A stretch of 5,346 bases of DNA from NCBI GenBank assembly GCA_946478675.1, contig CAMLEF010000314.1:1-5346 (forward strand), written 5' to 3'. Shown here piece by piece: positions 1 to 5,346 of the stretch. The position numbers were made by a program, and so were the translations under genes. The notes beneath the pieces were generated by a model. The model had not been told where the DNA came from. It did not search any database and saw nothing but the letters and a program-made list of their open reading frames with translations. How positions within the stretch are numbered: position 1 is the first letter of the stretch; each line of letters starts with the position of its first letter. The DNA is from an uncultured Flavobacteriales bacterium (GTDB lineage: Bacteria > Bacteroidota > Bacteroidia > Palsa-965).

Positions 1-1351
1 GCAGATCCCGCTTTTCGAAACGTATTTCGGTTCCGCGATGCCCGAATATGCGCGCTCCGTCAAACAGATGCCCGACAGCTTCGTGTACATGGCCGGCTAC
101 GTGAATGAGCTTTCGCTCGCGCATACGAACGTGGTGCTGTACAAACTCGATGCGCGCGGCAATGTGCGCTGGCAAAAAACCTACGGCGACACGCTCGACG
201 ACAACGGGCTTTGTCTTGAGAAAACACGCGACGGAAATTTTCTGCTCTGCGGCGAAAAACAAACGCCTTCCAATCTCAACGACGGCATTCTCTACAAGAT
301 CGACACGAGCGGAAATGTACTCTGGTATAAAACCTACGGCGGGCCGCAATACGAATCGTTCAACCGCGTGGCCGAGCTTCCCGATGGAAAACTCGTGCTC
401 GTCGGAACGCAAACCGATGCGGGCGGCTGGAACGGCATTTACGTGATGGTCACCGACAGCGCCGGCAACATGATCTGGACGGGCAATTACGGCGGCTCCG
501 ACAACGACATCGGCCACAGCCTGTGCGTGCTTCCCGACAGCGGCTTCGTCGTGTTCGGCGACACGCGCAGGGCCGGCGGCGATTACAACGTGGAAGGCAT
601 TCGCTTTACGAAGAACGGAACGGTGCTTTGGGACAGCACGTACACGTACAACGACACGGTGGCCGACGGTTGCCAGGGCGCCACGCTGCTCAGCGACGGA
701 AACATCCTCATCTTCGGCGAGTCGGTTGCTTACGCCGGATCGTGGTTCGATTTCCTCGTGCAGAAGATCGACGTGAACGGCAATACGATCTGGTGGAAAA
801 AAGTCGGCGGACCGAATCCCGATGCCGCGTTCTCGATGATCGAAGTGCCGGGCGGGTTTCTCGGAACGGGCTACAGCATGAGCTATTCGAGCGGGCCGAA
901 CAACATCATCGTTTTCAAAACCGATACGGCCGGAAATCTCCTGTGGGCGAATCCGTACGGCGGACCGAACATCGATATCGGTTACGAGATCATTCCTGCG
1001 CTCGGCGGCGGCTATTATGTGGGCGCAACAGCAAACGTTTCCGGCGACGATCAGTTCGGACTGCTGCACGTGGATGAAGGCGGCTGGGCGGGAATGCCGG
1101 AGCAATCTGCTGATGGAGAAGTTCGCCTGTACCCGAATCCGAACAATGGAAATTTCACCGTGCTGCTGCCGCCGAACAATTGTTCATCCGTTGTTGAAAT
1201 CGTGAGCGCTGGCGGCGCGCTGGTTTTTTCGGAAGAGATCGCCGCCGGCACAACGCAAACTTCGTTGCAGGAAAAGCTCTCGCCGGGAATGTATTTCCTG
1301 CGCGTGATTTCCGGTAAAAACGTAACGGTAAAAAAGCTGGTCGTCGATTGA
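1..1351 (+). CDS. Secreted beta-propeller-like repeat protein with T9SS type A sorting domain (5' end outside window)
   Basis: The reading frame is open from base 2, and the residues before the first ATG (base 38) already match the repeat pattern, so the true start lies upstream. Numbering from that ATG, the protein carries repeats of the form K-x-D-x-x-G-N-x-x-W-x-x-x-Y-G-G followed by a 'lPdGgfvvvG' strand. The repeat tryptophans fall at residues 45, 96, 147, 198, 252 and 303, a spacing of 51 (once 54). This suggests blades of a beta-propeller. After the repeats comes a C-terminal domain of about 75 residues with YPNPNNGNF at 365-373 and a final 'SPGMYFLRVISGKNVTVKKLVV' type strand pattern. 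That is the T9SS type A signature, which directs Bacteroidota proteins through the outer membrane, usually with cleavage of the tail. The protein should be extracellular or cell-surface. The ligand or activity is unknown; I see no catalytic motif. Its stop codon directly abuts the stop of the next, convergent gene. Confidence 0.9.
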   Translation, partial: QIPLFETYFGSAMPEYARSVKQMPDSFVYMAGYVNELSLAHTNVVLYKLDARGNVRWQKTYGDTLDDNGLCLEKTRDGNFLLCGEKQTPSNLNDGILYKIDTSGNVLWYKTYGGPQYESFNRVAELPDGKLVLVGTQTDAGGWNGIYVMVTDSAGNMIWTGNYGGSDNDIGHSLCVLPDSGFVVFGDTRRAGGDYNVEGIRFTKNGTVLWDSTYTYNDTVADGCQGATLLSDGNILIFGESVAYAGSWFDFLVQKIDVNGNTIWWKKVGGPNPDAAFSMIEVPGGFLGTGYSMSYSSGPNNIIVFKTDTAGNLLWANPYGGPNIDIGYEIIPALGGGYYVGATANVSGDDQFGLLHVDEGGWAGMPEQSADGEVRLYPNPNNGNFTVLLPPNNCSSVVEIVSAGGALVFSEEIAAGTTQTSLQEKLSPGMYFLRVISGKNVTVKKLVVD

Positions 1352-1597
1352 TCAGCCGACGAGCGTGCCGCTGTTGCTGAGCAGTTCTGCGCCCACTACA
1401 TCTTCCAGGTCGATCATCATGCCGATGGAATTGTTGTTGCGGTAGCTGCGGTTGAAACGTTCGTTGAGGCTGGCGAAATAATAACCGGGTCCGCCCGGCT
1501 GGGGTTTTTCCCAGATGACGCCAAACACTTCTTTTCCGGTCTTCAGCTTGAAACGACAGGGTTGGTCGTTGATGGCTATAAACTCTGCACGGGTCAT
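1352..1597 (-). CDS. Small conserved-looking protein of unknown function (81 aa)
   Basis: I do not recognise a named family. The frame remains open upstream to a GTG at 1702, but I chose the ATG at 1597 because AAGGA lies 8 nt before it and because the upstream residues look like translated leader. The resulting protein is 81 residues: MTRAEFIAINDQPCRFKLKTGKEVFGVIWE, then a Pro/Gly turn (QPGGPGYYF), an Asn/Arg-rich stretch and a hydrophobic strand (IGMMIDLEDVVGAELL). It is soluble, with no signal peptide or membrane segment. The 'kLktGkevfGvIwe' segment followed by later beta strands resembles a small SH3-like or Sm-like barrel, but this is only a fold guess. It is convergent with the T9SS protein gene with no intergenic base, and it is separated from the ferritin gene upstream by that gene's terminator. 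It is therefore probably transcribed alone. Confidence 0.7.
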   Translation of the reverse strand: MTRAEFIAINDQPCRFKLKTGKEVFGVIWEKPQPGGPGYYFASLNERFNRSYRNNNSIGMMIDLEDVVGAELLSNSGTLVG

Positions 1598-1605
1598 TCG
1601 TTGGG

Positions 1606-1610
1606 TCCTT
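1606..1610 (-). promoter_or_regulatory. Shine-Dalgarno-like AAGGA for the 81-aa protein
   Basis: AAGGA on the minus strand lies 8 nt upstream of the ATG at 1597. Good Shine-Dalgarno matches are uncommon in Bacteroidota, so this site favours the 1597 start over the GTG at 1702. Confidence 0.45.
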
Positions 1611-1665
1611 TTCTCAAAGTTCAACATTAAAACGCCGAAAGTCCAATTCTTGTTGCGCGTACTTT

Positions 1666-1701
1666 TTAACAGACTGCGCAAGCTGTTAATTGTTATTAAC
1701 A
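1666..1701. repeat. Overlapping inverted repeats with TTAACA half-sites
   Basis: TTAACAG at 1666-1672 and CTGTTAA at 1683-1689 form a perfect 7-bp inverted repeat with a 10-nt spacer. The second half-site is shared with another perfect 7-bp inverted repeat, TGTTAAT (1684-1690) and ATTAACA (1695-1701), with a TGTT spacer. Three regularly placed half-sites 70-105 bp upstream of the 81-aa gene could be an operator for a dimeric regulator. Which regulator would bind is unknown, and no clear -7 promoter element was found next to it. Confidence 0.45.
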
Positions 1702-1777
1702 CAGAACGCCGGTTGTTGTTTATTCGCGGCGAAAACTATGCCATTACGTCTGGAAACGGCGTGGATGTGGGATGTTT

Positions 1778-1834
1778 GCCGCAGAGGCGCGGAGGGCGCA
1801 GAGAATACCTCCGCGTTCTCTGCGCCTCTGCGGC
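1778..1834. repeat. Hairpin element built of 9-nt GCGCAGAGG-type units
   Basis: The left arm is three tandem 9-nt units: GCCGCAGAG (1778-1786), GCGCGGAGG (1787-1795) and GCGCAGAGA (1796-1804). The right arm contains the complements: CCTCCGCG (1808-1815), TTCTCTGCGC (1816-1825) and CTCTGCGGC (1826-1834). The outer 9 bp and the inner 10 bp pair perfectly, leaving the middle unit as a bulge that can instead pair with the loop. It lies just beyond the ferritin terminator. From memory, similar CGCAGAGG hairpins occur as dispersed intergenic repeats in many environmental genomes. Its coding potential is nil. Confidence 0.8.
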
Positions 1835-1844
1835 GAACGTTTTT

Positions 1845-1876
1845 TAAAAGAAAAGGCCGCTCAACAGAACGACCTT
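1845..1876 (-). terminator. Rho-independent terminator of the ferritin gene
   Basis: Read on the minus strand, AAGGTCGTTC (1876-1867), loop TGTT (1866-1863) and GAGCGGCCTT (1862-1853) make a 10-bp stem with two G-U pairs. It is followed at once by the T-rich run TTCTTTT. It begins about 25 nt after the ferritin stop codon. Confidence 0.8.
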
Positions 1877-1900
1877 CTCTTTCTTCTTTTACAAAATCCG

Positions 1901-2416
1901 TTACGCTCCCGCCTCTTCCGCCGGCTGCGCAGCCAGCGCTTCCATGTCACGATCAAACAAATAAAGTCCGCCTTTTTCACCGCCAATCAGCCTGAGCTTG
2001 TCGAGTACTTTGCGGGCGAGCGCTTCTTCTTCGATCTGTTCCGAAACGTACCACTGCAGGAAATTGTGCGTCGTATAGTCGCGTTCTTTCAGGCAGGCTT
2101 CGACGAGCTTGTTGATCTCGCCGGAAACTTTGATCTCATGCTTCAGCACTTCTTCGAAAACCGCCTGCACGGATTTGAAATTTTTCGGCGGCTGCTCCAA
2201 TGCGGGAACAACGGCTTTTCCTCCGCGTTCATTGACGAACTTCAGCAGCTTGAGCATGTGCATGCGCTCTTCGTCGGAGTGCTTGTAAAGAAACTGCGCG
2301 ACGCCGTTCATGCCTTGCGTTTCGGCCCAGGAAGCCATGGCGAGATAATATTGCGAGGAGTTTCCCTCGAGGACAACCTGCTCGTTGAGGGCTTTTTGGA
2401 TCTTTTCGGAAATCAT
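1901..2416 (-). CDS. ftnA: Non-haem bacterial ferritin (FtnA type)
   Basis: This 171-residue protein is an iron-storage ferritin that would oxidise Fe(II) at a di-iron centre and store the product as a ferric mineral inside a 24-subunit cytoplasmic shell. The ferroxidase ligands are all present at the same residue numbers as in E. coli FtnA: Glu17, Tyr24, Glu50, His53 (motif DEERMHM), Glu94, Gln127 and Glu130 (QIEEE). The four-helix bundle covers about residues 1-145, and the acidic Ala/Glu tail (QPAEEAGA) is disordered. Length is normal for the family. No haem-ligand Met or bacterioferritin signature is needed here; Dps is excluded by length and motif placement. It is transcribed alone: a -7 promoter element lies 20 nt upstream and a terminator follows the stop. 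It is divergent from the lipoprotein cluster, with 128 bp between the start codons. Confidence 0.97.
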   Translation of the reverse strand: MISEKIQKALNEQVVLEGNSSQYYLAMASWAETQGMNGVAQFLYKHSDEERMHMLKLLKFVNERGGKAVVPALEQPPKNFKSVQAVFEEVLKHEIKVSGEINKLVEACLKERDYTTHNFLQWYVSEQIEEEALARKVLDKLRLIGGEKGGLYLFDRDMEALAAQPAEEAGA

Positions 2417-2435
2417 CGGGTTATGGTTTAGGCGC

Positions 2436-2443
2436 CAAAGTTA
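2436..2443 (-). promoter_or_regulatory. Ferritin promoter -7 element (TAACTTTG)
   Basis: TAACTTTG on the minus strand is a perfect match to the Bacteroidota -7 consensus TAnnTTTG and lies 20 nt before the ferritin ATG. No TTG is found 17-23 nt further upstream, so the -33 element is weak or replaced. An 11-bp palindrome occupies that spacer region. Confidence 0.55.
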
Positions 2444-2451
2444 TAACATCA

Positions 2452-2462
2452 CTGACTGTCAG
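2452..2462. repeat. Palindrome CTGACTGTCAG in the divergent promoter region
   Basis: CTGAC and GTCAG flank a single T. The palindrome sits immediately upstream of the ferritin -7 element, inside the expected -7/-33 spacer, where a repressor could act. It is short enough to be chance. Confidence 0.35.
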
Positions 2463-2486
2463 GTTGGTTTTTTGTGACTTCACCGG

Positions 2487-2515
2487 TTGTTTCTGTTTAT
2501 TCTACTTTATTTTTG
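2487..2515 (+). promoter_or_regulatory. Promoter of the first lipoprotein gene (TTG-N18-TATTTTTG)
   Basis: TTG at 2487-2489 and TATTTTTG at 2508-2515 are separated by 18 nt, which fits the Bacteroidota consensus TTG-N17-23-TAnnTTTG. The ATG is 29 nt after the -7 element, giving a short A-rich leader that contains TAAACCAAA. Confidence 0.6.
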
Positions 2516-2544
2516 CCGTGAACCAACTAAACCAAAATCCCACT

Positions 2545-3129
2545 ATGAAAAAACCCCTTGCGTCCGCTCTCGCAGCGTTCATTTTCGCCACCATTTTCCT
2601 GGCATCCTGTTCACAGTTCGGTAACCTCGACGTACAGAAGCGCCATTACAACAAAGGTTTCTACGTTCACCGCAGCGAAAAACCGACCACGGTTGCTGCT
2701 GAAGAAAAAAACGTAACGATCGCTTCTTTCGATGCACCCGCGCAGCAGTCGCAGGAACCGGTAGCCGCTAAACAGGCTCCTGTTGAACAGGCACAAGCTC
2801 CCGCGGCCGTTCAGCAACAGCCCACGGTTACCACGAACAAAGCCGTTCGCGCAATTGCAAAAACGAAAGTGGCTGATCGCCCGGCTACCATCAGCCCGGT
2901 AAAAGCAGATGCTCCTGCTGTTGTTTCACAAGCGAAAAAAGCTCCTGCACAAAGCAGCGGCAAGCCGGACAAAGCGCTCCTGATCATCCTCGCGATCCTC
3001 ATCCCGTGGCTGGCTGTCGGCCTCGCTACCGATTGGGACGTGAAGCAGCTGATCATTAACCTGCTGCTTTGCCTTACCTGCATCGGCGGCATCATCCACG
3101 CGCTCGTCGTGGTTAACCGCAATGCTTAA
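2545..3129 (+). CDS. YqaE/Pmp3-domain lipoprotein, paralogue 1
   Basis: I chose the ATG at 2545 because it gives a clean lipoprotein signal peptide directly downstream of a good promoter; the open frame from 2464 only adds translated leader. The 194-residue product has a signal peptide ending in the lipobox LASC (Cys22), then the box LDVQKRHYNKGFYVH (28-42). A linker of about 97 residues rich in Ala, Gln, Val, Pro and Lys follows. The C-terminal YqaE/Pmp3 domain (about 144-191) is two hydrophobic segments around a short polar turn, with IHALVVV near the end. Pmp3 proteins are small membrane proteins linked in yeast and plants to membrane potential and salt stress; the role of bacterial versions is unclear. 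This copy departs from the usual ILLPPLAV-LKEG core, reading ILIPWLAVGLATD. No acidic residue follows the lipidated Cys (CSQFG), so surface export is not predicted. The DUF2752 gene starts 3 nt after its stop without a terminator, so the two are probably co-transcribed. Confidence 0.88.
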   Translation: MKKPLASALAAFIFATIFLASCSQFGNLDVQKRHYNKGFYVHRSEKPTTVAAEEKNVTIASFDAPAQQSQEPVAAKQAPVEQAQAPAAVQQQPTVTTNKAVRAIAKTKVADRPATISPVKADAPAVVSQAKKAPAQSSGKPDKALLIILAILIPWLAVGLATDWDVKQLIINLLLCLTCIGGIIHALVVVNRNA

Positions 3130-3132
3130 TCA

Positions 3133-3465
3133 TTGAAAAGGATTTTCTTTTTGATCCTGATCGGAGGGATGCTTATCACACCGGTGGTGCTGATAATGCT
3201 TCCCTCCGGTTTTTTTGACCAGGGCGAATCGATCTGCCCGTCTAAGCTGCTGTTCGGCGTTGAATGCCCGGGCTGCGGCATGACGCGCGCTACGATGCAC
3301 ATGATGCACCTCGAATTCACGCAAGCATGGGGCTTCAACCGGCTCAGCGTGGTCCTGGTTCCGCTATTGTTATTTTTCTACTTCAGCATCCTCGTACGTT
3401 TTATCCGCCGCGTCCGCAACAATGGCGAAAAGCTCCCGCGTGAAAAACAGCAGGCCGCAAAGTGA
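3133..3465 (+). CDS. DUF2752 small membrane protein
   Basis: The 110-residue protein has a first membrane segment at about residues 4-24, the diagnostic Cys-rich motif CPGCGMTRA at 45-53 preceded by Cys35, then His/Met-rich residues (MHMMH, 55-59), F62, A65 and N69, and a second membrane segment at about 71-92, ending in a basic tail (RFIRRVRNN). C35/C45/C48 and the Cys-Pro-x-Cys-Gly-x-Thr-Arg pattern define DUF2752, whose function is unknown; metal or redox roles for the cysteines are only inferred. The start is taken as TTG at 3133, because the frame has a stop at 3127 and MKRIFFLILIGG makes a sensible membrane start. An ATG at 3169 would remove half of the first membrane segment. The 3-nt gap to the upstream stop suggests translational coupling with lipoprotein 1. 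The second Cys pair sits on the side between the two membrane segments, possibly periplasmic. Confidence 0.85.
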   Translation: MKRIFFLILIGGMLITPVVLIMLPSGFFDQGESICPSKLLFGVECPGCGMTRATMHMMHLEFTQAWGFNRLSVVLVPLLLFFYFSILVRFIRRVRNNGEKLPREKQQAAK

Positions 3466-3476
3466 CGCACATCAGG

Positions 3477-3504
3477 TTGTTTTCTTTCTTCCGTTGTAAC
3501 TTTA
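3477..3504 (+). promoter_or_regulatory. Probable promoter of the second lipoprotein gene (TTG-N17-TAACTTTA)
   Basis: TTG at 3477-3479 and TAACTTTA at 3497-3504 have a 17-nt spacer; the -7 element has one mismatch to TAnnTTTG. Its distance to the ATG (27 nt) is close to that at the first lipoprotein (29 nt), and the leader again contains TAAACCAAA (3513-3521). This suggests the promoter was duplicated with the gene. Confidence 0.45.
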
Positions 3505-3531
3505 CTTGCATATAAACCAAACCTTCCCGCG

Positions 3532-4131
3532 ATGAAAAAGCTCTTTCGTTCCTCTTCGATCGTTGTTTTCCTCTTTGCCGTAGCGTTTCTTTCTTCCTGC
3601 TCGCAGTTCGGCAACCTCGACATTCAGAAGCGCCATTACAATAAAGGCTTCTACGTTCACCGCAGCGAAAAGCACGACGCCGTTTCCGCTGAAGAAAAAA
3701 CCATGAGCGCCGCAGTTACTGAAACCGCAACGGAAATTCAGCAGCCGGTTGCCGTGGAGGAAGCGTCTTCGACGCCCGTAGCTCAGCCGTCGCGCACTGT
3801 GGCTCTTCAGCAACAAGCTGCGGAAGAATCGAACCACGCTGTTCGTCCCGCTGTTGAAAAACCGGCGACGCATTCCACGACTATTGTTCCTGTAAAAATC
3901 AAAACGCCTGCGTCGATCGTTCTGCACGATCGCAAAGCGCCCGCCGGACAAGCAAGCGGCGACGTCGACCTGCTCATTCTCGTCATCCTGGCGATCCTGC
4001 TGCCGCCGCTGGCCGTGTTCCTGAAAGAAGGCGACCTCACAATGAACTTCTGGATCGACCTGCTGCTGTGCCTGCTCTTCTTCCTGCCGGGCATCATCTT
4101 CGCGCTGCTCGTCGTGTTCGACGTGGTTTAA
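3532..4131 (+). CDS. YqaE/Pmp3-domain lipoprotein, paralogue 2
   Basis: The 199-residue product has the same layout as paralogue 1: MKK-type signal peptide with lipobox LSSC (Cys23), the box LDIQKRHYNKGFYVH (29-43), a linker of about 100 residues rich in Ala, Glu, Val, Thr and Gln, and a C-terminal Pmp3 domain (about 146-199). This domain is a textbook match, reading ILAILLPPLAVFLKEG and then FLPGIIFALLVV. The first 25 residues from the lipidated cysteine differ from paralogue 1 at one position only (Ile for Val). The linkers cannot be aligned convincingly. The protein is expected to be anchored by lipid at one end and inserted in a membrane at the other. It lies 66 nt behind the DUF2752 gene with its own likely promoter, and is followed 20 nt later by a strong terminator. 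It could also be read through from the promoter at 2487. The exact function is unknown. Confidence 0.9.
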   Translation: MKKLFRSSSIVVFLFAVAFLSSCSQFGNLDIQKRHYNKGFYVHRSEKHDAVSAEEKTMSAAVTETATEIQQPVAVEEASSTPVAQPSRTVALQQQAAEESNHAVRPAVEKPATHSTTIVPVKIKTPASIVLHDRKAPAGQASGDVDLLILVILAILLPPLAVFLKEGDLTMNFWIDLLLCLLFFLPGIIFALLVVFDVV

Positions 4132-4151
4132 CACAAAAAGATTTTTTTTAG

Positions 4152-4189
4152 AAAGAGCCTCTGCTATTGCGCGGGGGCTTTTTCTTTTT
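4152..4189 (+). terminator. Rho-independent terminator after lipoprotein 2
   Basis: AAAGAGCCTCTGC (4152-4164), loop TATTGC and GCGGGGGCTTTTT (4171-4183) form a 13-bp stem with three G-U pairs, followed by the T-rich run CTTTTT. It separates the second paralogue from the third. Confidence 0.8.
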
Positions 4190-4242
4190 GGTGTGGCATG
4201 CTTTTGCTGTTGTGTGAAAAACAAACAGACAATTACGCACCC

Positions 4243-4860
4243 ATGAAAACACGTACTTTCTTATTCGCGATCGCTACCGCCTTTCTTTTTTCCGCCTGCA
4301 ACGTCCTCGACAATTTACAGGTTGAAAAACGTCACTACGGCAAAGGATACTACGTGCACCTGCGGAAAGACCGCCAGACGGAACCCGTAGCTGCTGCACA
4401 GGCCGACAACACGACGCCCGCGCCGCCGGCTGTTGAGGAAAAACCTGCCGCTGCCGGGGAAAACGCACCACGCACTTCACCGCCCGCGCAAGCACCCGCG
4501 CCCGCGCCGCCTGCAACATCAACAGAAAAATCTTCCGTTCCGGAAAGCTCGCCTCCGCATCACACGGCCGTTGCCGACGCTTCTTCACAGGAAACGTTCG
4601 TCATGCATGAACATCCCGGCCCCGCCGATGATGGTGATGCTGCAGTCGTCTTGTTGTTGCTGATCATTCTCGCGATCCTGTTGCCGCCGCTGGCTGTTGC
4701 GCTGAAAGAAGGCTTGACCGTGCGCTTCCTGCTCGACCTGATCTTCTGGCTGCTCGGTTATGGCTTTATCTTCTTCGTCGCCGGCGGTTATATTTATCTC
4801 GGCATCTTCGGACTGATCGCCATTATCTATGCGCTGCTGATCGTGCTGGATGTAATCTAG
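4243..4860 (+). CDS. YqaE/Pmp3-domain lipoprotein, paralogue 3 (with enlarged membrane domain)
   Basis: The ATG at 4243 gives a compact signal peptide with lipobox FSAC (Cys19); the open frame from 4198 runs back toward the terminator and is not favoured. The 205-residue product has the box LQVEKRHYGKGYYVH (25-39), a divergent version of that in the two upstream paralogues, then a linker of about 95 residues that is Pro/Ala-rich (PAQAPAPAPPATS) and ends in a His/Asp/Gly patch (HEHPGPADDGD). The C-terminal Pmp3-like domain begins at about 135 (ILAILLPPLAVALKEG). From that motif to the end it has 64 residues against 48 in paralogue 2. The excess is an aromatic/Gly-rich hydrophobic insertion (about GYGFIFFVAGGYIYLG) before IIYALLIVLDVI. 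It may therefore have three membrane segments instead of two. I found no clear -7 element in the 53 nt between the terminator and the ATG. It may rely on an unusual promoter or on terminator read-through. Confidence 0.88.
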   Translation: MKTRTFLFAIATAFLFSACNVLDNLQVEKRHYGKGYYVHLRKDRQTEPVAAAQADNTTPAPPAVEEKPAAAGENAPRTSPPAQAPAPAPPATSTEKSSVPESSPPHHTAVADASSQETFVMHEHPGPADDGDAAVVLLLLIILAILLPPLAVALKEGLTVRFLLDLIFWLLGYGFIFFVAGGYIYLGIFGLIAIIYALLIVLDVI

Positions 4861-4868
4861 TGGGGGTG

Positions 4869-4949
4869 CGAATTACGAATCATTACGAATATACGAATCG
4901 CACACTCCAACACATGTCATTCGTATATTCGTATTGATTCGTTAATTCG
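4869..4949. repeat. Long inverted repeat of ACGAAT units
   Basis: The left arm (4869-4898) and right arm (4919-4949) pair over about 30 bp with one mismatch and one single-base insertion, around a 20-nt loop. Each arm is itself made of four (A)CGAAT units at irregular 6-10 nt spacing. It lies between the convergent lipoprotein 3 and LutB-like genes, 8 nt past the lipoprotein stop. A long hairpin there could stop or process both transcripts, although no T-run follows it on either strand. It is probably one copy of a dispersed repeat family. Confidence 0.85.
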
Positions 4950-4982
4950 TGACCCGCTCCCCTGCCAATGCAATCGGCTCCT

Positions 4983-5346
4983 TCACTTGATACCCTTGCG
5001 TTCCCGCCACAATTGATTGAACGACTTCGGGGCCACTGCGGGTAATTCTCTCCGGTCGCCCCAGGATTTGCGGAAGAACTGGCGCAGCATAAAATTCTTC
5101 AGCTTCGCGCCGCCTTTATCCATCTTGCCGCGCTTGAGCATCGCGCCTTTCCAGAAGAACCACATCACGTTCTCCGTCTTCGTGGCGTAACCCGAAGCCA
5201 TCGCATCGCGGCGATTGTAGAGTAATAATTTGTGCAGGTCGATCCTCACCGGGCAGGCTTCCGTGCATCGTCCGCATAACGTAGACGCGTAGCCGAGATG
5301 CGCGAAGGAATTGTTTCCCGTCATCGAAGGCAGCATCGCCGAACCG
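4983..5346 (-). CDS. lutB: LutB/LldF-type iron-sulfur protein, C-terminal part (5' end outside window)
   Basis: The minus-strand frame runs through the window edge, so only the last ~120 residues are seen. They start with GSAMLPSMTG, then HLGYASTLCGRCTEACPVRIDLHKLLLYNRRD. The CxxCxxxCP motif ligates a 4Fe-4S cluster and, with the 'YAS-LCG-CTE-CPV-I-LH-LLL--RR' context, is characteristic of LutB/LldF. This is the ferredoxin-like subunit of the LutABC system that oxidises L-lactate to pyruvate in the cytoplasm. The segment that follows contains aromatic and basic residues (VMWFFWKGAMLKRGK) and ends RELPAVAPKSFNQLWRERKGIK, matching the usual LutB C-terminal 'lP..a..SF..lWr.r' tail. An internal ATG at 5336 is not the start, because the family has several hundred residues upstream. 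lutA and lutC are not in the window. Confidence 0.88.
   Translation of the reverse strand, partial: GSAMLPSMTGNNSFAHLGYASTLCGRCTEACPVRIDLHKLLLYNRRDAMASGYATKTENVMWFFWKGAMLKRGKMDKGGAKLKNFMLRQFFRKSWGDRRELPAVAPKSFNQLWRERKGIK

Follow-up and report, generated by a model that had tools for sequence, protein, structure and literature searches.

KRHY-box lipoproteins of Bacteroidota: modular envelope proteins that may bridge two membranes

Three neighbouring genes, here called P1, P2 and P3, raise the question of why a bacterium would place a small Pmp3 membrane domain at the end of a long, putatively lipid-anchored arm. They lie on the + strand of a 5,346-nucleotide stretch of an uncultured Flavobacteriales bacterium (assembly GCA_946478675.1, contig CAMLEF010000314.1, positions 1–5,346), which at its full length is referred to as the window. 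A preliminary description had placed three tandem genes at 2545–4860, coordinates that hold, and had proposed that they encode a possible family of tethers, ending in Pmp3, that could join two membranes or loop back to the same one. From sequence comparisons, we assign P1–P3 to a family of modular Bacteroidota lipoproteins, termed KRHY-box lipoproteins. For this family, the architecture, its modularity, the membrane end, the lack of a surface signal and, within the proteins examined, a minimum arm length are established at that level. Its members may be envelope anchors or bridges of a kind not recognised before. Our tentative preference, which we put somewhat short of an even chance, is for a single-chain bridge that would have its lipid in one membrane and its module in the other.

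The three window proteins

The three genes encode the following proteins:

2545–3129, + strand: P1, 194 residues; signal peptide II (LASC, Cys22); box KRHYNKGFYVH (residues 32–42); linker; a variant of the Pmp3 module, whose loop reads AVGLATDWD
3532–4131, + strand: P2, 199 residues; signal peptide II (LSSC, Cys23); box KRHYNKGFYVH (residues 33–43); linker; best-matching Pmp3 module (residues 149–195)
4243–4860, + strand: P3, 205 residues; signal peptide II (FSAC); box KRHYGKGYYVH; linker rich in Pro and Ala; Pmp3 module in which an additional insertion precedes the last segment

With sequence identities of 50% (P1/P2) and 35% (P2/P3), the proteins are true paralogues, and chance resemblance was rejected on the same figures. 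Each contains the features by which we recognise the family, namely a signal peptide, a K-[RK]-x-[YH]-x-x-G box, a linker and C-terminal membrane segments. The lipobox cysteine near the N-terminus is read by pattern in all three, and the linker is ∼100 residues long in each. In an AlphaFold2 model of P2 (mean pLDDT 62), the box is predicted as a β-hairpin (strands 31–36 and 39–44), residues 45–142 lack secondary structure at low confidence, and two helices (143–166 and 171–195) form a hydrophobic hairpin within a block of pLDDT 69–82. The lipobox cysteine, the flexible linker and the C-terminal Pmp3 hairpin of the preliminary description are all borne out by these predictions.

The C-terminal parts of P1, P2 and P3 resemble the Pmp3/YqaE/UPF0057 family (PF01679), with scores of 32.5, 59.9 and 33.2 bits against the Pfam curated cut-off of 22.9. 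A search of PHROGs returned just a weak membrane-protein match to this part. Standalone Pmp3 proteins are usually ∼50–60 residues long. Pmp3 is mostly a standalone protein in Bacteroidota, whereas P1–P3, at 194–205 residues, add an export signal, a lipobox, the box and a long arm in front of it, and do not match that usual form. Among solved chains, the Pmp3 part matches PscF/Ric1, a component of the reaction centre in green sulfur bacteria (7ueb_F, E-value 0.0018); the only other match up to an E-value of 1 is 6pny_A (0.91). Unlike P1–P3, PscF/Ric1 is a standalone protein of 58 residues, without lipid or arm. A title and abstract search of one open-access library, with subscription papers and preprints outside its range, found no paper on lipidated Pmp3 proteins or on the KRHY box.

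A common box and arm with interchangeable modules

The box pattern was scanned against one genome per species (84,980 species) and matched 197 stretches, of which 83 encode relatives by similarity to P2. Eighty of these were kept and the other 114 stand outside the box counts, which thus cover this selected set of 80 stretches and its relatives. A further 80 regions were fetched before the final count, for which proteins had to match an N-terminal profile at 1e-5 or better. The profile recovered 261 open reading frames (ORFs) at 0.01, reduced to 193 by a loose-box filter and removal of duplicates, and to 191 non-redundant proteins, window trio included, once one ORF above 1e-5 and one without the stricter box (L231, a QRKY variant) were dropped. 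Residues 18–62 of P1 as sole query found just five proteins, all close relatives. The relatives of the window proteins belong to Bacteroidota. One contig labelled as Saccharibacteria (L041) encodes a box protein almost identical to that of a Bacteroidetes bin (L040), and is perhaps misbinned.

The box is 11 residues long and starts 4–17 residues after the cysteine; the linker that follows is rich in Lys, Glu, Ser, Thr, Ala and Asn. The preliminary description had considered the box to be strictly kept. The exact form KRHYxKGxYVH is indeed present in P1–P3, but outside the window the box is looser: among 245 lipid-plus-box proteins (from the window, the loci and the listed homologues), its Lys and Gly are required or invariant, its Arg is found in 238 and its Tyr in 241. 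The spacing from cysteine to box is even (4, 6, 8, 10 or 14) in 209 of the 245 and odd in 36, for which strand register or lineage could be an explanation.

The same unit of signal, cysteine, box and linker also carries C-terminal modules other than Pmp3. Pfam assignments for 87 proteins (the window trio and 84 of 85 box ORFs) gave Pmp3 in 28, DUF5670 (PF18919) in 15, DUF4190 (PF13828) in four and TM2 (PF05154) in three; weak matches to DUF2207_C in five were given no weight. DUF5670, DUF4190 and TM2 are Pfam families distinct from Pmp3, alike in standing behind the same box and arm, and none of them is found in the window. In the set that is neither Pmp3 nor DUF5670-like, DUF4190 was found in 20 and TM2 in two of the 53 proteins run out of 75, and unnamed membrane modules also occur behind the box and arm. 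Pmp3 was therefore rejected as the defining feature: the arm carries it as one module among several, and the family is defined by the box. The expected combination of lipobox, KRHY box and PF01679 does recur, although the box is also found with the other modules, and four of the proteins that have it lack a lipobox (see below).

Whichever module is present, a membrane end accompanies the box almost without exception. Membrane segments are predicted in 188 of 189 box proteins with a complete C-terminus (window trio included), and the sole exception (L066, ∼5950–6620) is an apparently frameshifted box gene whose hydrophobic, module-like stretch continues in another frame. As a control, one strict lipobox pattern was applied over 258 sources, including loci without box genes; a membrane segment follows the cysteine in 3 of 37 other lipobox ORFs, those three being paralogues. 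Module classes were assigned with home-made, motif-seeded HMMs, and 13 of 26 DUF5670-type picks match the Pfam model at 0.001. Five of ten genomes tallied (G009, G409, G425, G433 and G460) combine Pmp3 with DUF5670-like and other modules.

The distribution of the unit differs from that of Pmp3. Within one order, the N-terminal unit was matched in 81 of 87 genomes at an E-value of 0.01 or better and in 66 below 1e-6, compared to 19 genomes with Pmp3 (20 matches, of which 12 fall in frames of 197–244 residues). At 0.01, a single genome has as many as 12 matches to the unit. Thus, the box unit is the commoner of the two in that order. Across a phylum sample, 139 of 395 genomes matched the profile at 0.01, mostly via the signal peptide alone, and three below 1e-6. 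All of these profile counts are lower bounds, as the scans scored at most 84 candidates per genome in the order and at most 18 in the phylum sample. In a sample of 198 Bacteroidota genomes, Pmp3 was found in 97, with 94 of 105 matches in frames of up to 107 residues, mostly standalone.

A constant front with variable C-terminal modules, together with tandem arrays (two or three box-gene copies in 22 of 164 sources), would also be compatible with a platform that delivers membrane-active effectors, like lipoprotein polymorphic toxins, and P2 has a sub-threshold NCBIfam match to a SitA5-type domain (E-value 0.053, with 13 bits where the cut-off is 160). We consider such a role very improbable, since the modules that can be named belong to general membrane families, no immunity-type neighbour was seen by eye in the 28 largest neighbour clusters (judged without Pfam), and no noteworthy match to a defence family was obtained. 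The last result also led us to reject a defence system. A mobile or plasmid origin was dropped as a lead, as a plasmid collection contained no relative of P2 at 1e-5 and none of 44 pattern matches on viral contigs was confirmed.

Pmp3, DUF5670, DUF4190 and TM2 are small membrane families whose bacterial roles are poorly understood. That they occur interchangeably at the end of one lipid-anchored arm suggests a common job in the envelope, to which a single conserved box and a single arm length offer a handle.

Arm length and the placement of the two ends

The distance from the cysteine to the membrane segments ranges from 105 to 217 residues in the 245 lipid-plus-box proteins (median 127), and is at least 105 in every one; L084 is counted as lipobox and hence among them, though its cysteine falls inside the signal segment. 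An extended chain has a contour length of ∼0.35 nm per residue and the periplasm is ∼20–30 nm wide, so that 105 residues would reach ∼37 nm, which would suffice for the crossing. The comparison of linker lengths called for by the preliminary description gave nearly the same mean for two unrelated modules, 126.6 residues for Pmp3 (sd 8.7, n = 129) and 125.1 for DUF5670-like (sd 6.1, n = 41). The remaining modules average 149.9 (sd 24.7, n = 75), and many have an extra KVLEI...YKKC-like stretch. Such a stretch also precedes DUF4190-type modules in many of the tandem box proteins of L056, L200, L214, L217, L226, L228 and L240.

Among the 237 listed Pmp3 homologues, arms average 125.4 residues (sd 7.0, n = 68) where lipid and box are both present and 68.8 (n = 149) where both are absent, the latter mostly relatives of one protein. 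These homologues were drawn from the listed 120 of 522 and the listed 120 of 3340 matches, the second group all being relatives of one protein. Sixteen proteins were scored as having lipid only, of which seven (P0105, P0148, P0197, P0217, P0227, P0235 and P0236) have a type I signal peptide on reading. In the nine lipidated homologues without a standard box, the distance is 111–132; the box is of a variant form in P0021, P0034 and P0042, and that of P0086 escaped the pattern. The non-lipidated exported Pmp3 proteins (for example P0116 from Ferruginibacter) share the signal peptide and the C-terminal Pmp3 domain, but have neither lipobox nor box; many have a SLSKKERKxRIKEAKK-like stretch, and their arm is mostly much shorter (mean 69).

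Within module classes, the spread in arm length appears to level off as sequences diverge. For pairs of Pmp3-type proteins, the squared difference in arm length averages 8 at first and 114 by a module distance of 0.81, and is then 120 (1.03) and 108 (1.33). For DUF5670-like pairs, the values across divergence are 20, 34, 52, 61, 61 and 31.

The lipid end can be placed tentatively from its sorting signals. A lipobox is found by pattern in 182 of 191 box proteins, and six of the nine misses have a cysteine on reading. A surface-export motif at positions +2 to +6 (two acidic residues or the known motif, K-(D/E)2/acidic-rich) was found in none of the 245 box proteins, in agreement with the lack of such residues noted in the preliminary description. 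An acidic motif at +2 to +6 is reported to direct Bacteroidota lipoproteins to the surface (PMC5080379), and LolA and LolB to be conserved across Bacteroidota (PMC11885536). Together, the missing motif and the conserved LolA/LolB lead us to expect that the cysteine end faces the periplasm, and we infer that it resides in the outer membrane.

At the other end, the stretch before the Pmp3-type hairpin has a net charge of −0.46, with more acidic than basic residues, and net charge is highest in the loop, which is near neutral (+0.09; 91 of 129 proteins could be scored). This pattern fits weakly with a periplasmic linker.

The bridge that we tentatively prefer would form as follows. The C-terminal module would insert into the inner membrane, leaving the linker in the periplasm. 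The cysteine would be lipidated and, since there is no surface-export signal, would then be passed on by the Lol pathway and arrive at the outer membrane, on its periplasmic face. A flexible arm of ∼100–125 residues would in this way span the periplasm, and at its far end the box would grip a partner, which might be outer-membrane lipid, a barrel or peptidoglycan. The function of the protein may be to keep small membrane modules of the stress type at a fixed distance from the outer membrane, thereby coupling both membranes in envelope or osmotic stress. An envelope-stress role is suggested because the standalone yqaE of E. coli is induced when lipoprotein transport is blocked by a LolCDE inhibitor, and is named with CpxA/R-regulated genes (table values 8.17 and 17.15; PMC5105897). 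If the arm does cross the periplasm, a major phylum would have a simple one-protein link of both membranes, and membrane spacing in Bacteroidota would become testable.

A likeness to Pal/Tol, TonB and LpoB–PBP1B may be proposed, as in each a disordered or extended segment joins outer- and inner-membrane parts. Those links are multi-protein or peptidoglycan-bound, whereas here a single chain would be lipidated at its front and end in membrane segments. It is conceivable, though we think it rather unlikely, that the family represents a new lineage-amplified class of bridges with several members per genome, in which a constant lipid and box grip on the outer membrane, a disordered, length-kept arm across the periplasm and interchangeable inner-membrane modules (Pmp3, DUF5670, DUF4190 or TM2) would act as a socket system that holds different small modules under outer-membrane attachment sites.

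Several observations weigh against the bridge. The pooled arm-length test over all modules has no plateau, so that we rely on the within-module version; in both tests the pairs share ancestry and are not independent, and the plateau is suggestive. Five Pmp3 proteins have arms of 114–128 residues with neither lipid nor box. Four proteins (two genes of L022, L084 and L067) keep the box behind an ordinary signal peptide with no lipobox; the lipid is thus not obligatory. The bias in charge is weak, and proteins of the DUF5670-like class carry a basic residue at the C-terminus. The model of a DUF5670-type protein (mean pLDDT 60, below 50 over residues 42–108, with two short followed by two long helices) lacks the box β-hairpin predicted for P2; since one of two models has it, no box structure is claimed, and a loose linker with helical ends is the sole point on which both models agree. 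Lipidation, the outer-membrane position of the cysteine and the inner-membrane position of the module are all predicted. The two-membrane tether of the preliminary description is therefore partly and indirectly supported, by the lack of an export motif, the minimum arm of 105 residues, the equal mean for two unrelated modules and the mostly much shorter arms of the listed exported Pmp3 proteins without lipid; the four proteins without a lipobox speak against a purely lipid-based tether.

These same four proteins, in which lipid is dispensable, are compatible with a serious rival, a possible arrangement that ranks close behind the bridge. Here, both ends would reside in the inner membrane: the lipid would stay in its outer leaflet, as the C-terminal segments block or outlast Lol extraction, with the linker forming a periplasmic loop and the box serving as a ligand for peptidoglycan or a partner. 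The C-terminal module would enter that same membrane, and DUF4190 and TM2 modules are unlikely to leave it. By itself, however, this arrangement gives no reason for an arm minimum of 105 residues among 245 proteins.

Another alternative, which we regard as improbable, turns on how Pmp3 sits in a membrane. The whole protein might be exported and its Pmp3 domain be monotopic, lying in that leaflet of the inner membrane which faces the periplasm, or even in the outer membrane, within its inner leaflet; the module would then face opposite to standalone Pmp3. Exported Pmp3 proteins without lipid do exist (3340 relatives of one, 120 of them listed). Predictions for PMPL-1, a Pmp3-like worm protein, point both ways (PMC12136403): an AlphaFold2 model is monotopic, whereas DeepTMHMM predicts two passes with both ends cytosolic. 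The sole convincing solved match, PscF/Ric1, is reported to have four membrane helices fully embedded in the bilayer (PMC9529944), and can be read in favor of this alternative. Against it, the same arm also carries DUF4190 and TM2 modules, which look multi-spanning, and the two helices of the P2 model are 24–25 residues long.

Neighbouring genes and transcription

The preliminary description overlooked a gene between the first two copies. The remaining features near P1–P3 are:

3133–3465, + strand: DUF2752 membrane protein (CPGCGMTRA; PF10825, 69.5 bits against a cut-off of 27, E-value 2.5e-19); TTG start, alternative ATG at 3169
4150–4185, + strand: terminator-like stem of 15 pairs followed by a T run, 3′ of P2 (consensus scan)

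The TTG start of the DUF2752 gene is 3 bases past the stop of P1, and the two are probably in one transcript. The terminator-like stem 3′ of P2 suggests that P3 is probably transcribed separately; the scan found six such sites in the region, compared to a mean of 4.1 in shuffled sequence. Promoter-like sites (TANNTTTG, at most one mismatch) numbered 40, with 48.6 expected by chance, and are thus not in excess.

The link between box genes and DUF2752 is repeated but partial. The DUF2752 signature was found in six of 258 sources (the window and 257 loci), two being one same gene. Every DUF2752 gene found is on the same strand and 3′ of a Pmp3-type box gene (window, L009/L083, L026, L029 and L044; five distinct places). 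Three DUF2752-adjoining box genes (window P1, L009 and L044) have the TDW-type loop of P1, and five further TDW-type box genes (L021, L031, L032, L034 and L045) have no DUF2752 neighbour. DUF2752 genes are also present in three of eight box-gene-rich genomes, all at places outside the fetched loci. Close 3′ of box genes in L021 (6820), L032 (6358) and L045 (5000; + strand, 0-based frame starts), box-less lipoproteins are encoded that terminate in a membrane segment ∼128 residues after the cysteine.

P1–P3 sit between other genes of the window, which encode a T9SS sorting-domain protein, a ferritin and a LutB-like fragment (Pfam and NCBIfam), a content that has the look of Bacteroidota. An open frame of 116 residues on the minus strand (1352–1702) has no match in Pfam, NCBIfam or PHROGs. 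Two intergenic inverted repeats are located at 1774–1838 (arms of 30 nucleotides, 83%) and 4875–4942 (arms of 24 nucleotides, 96%).

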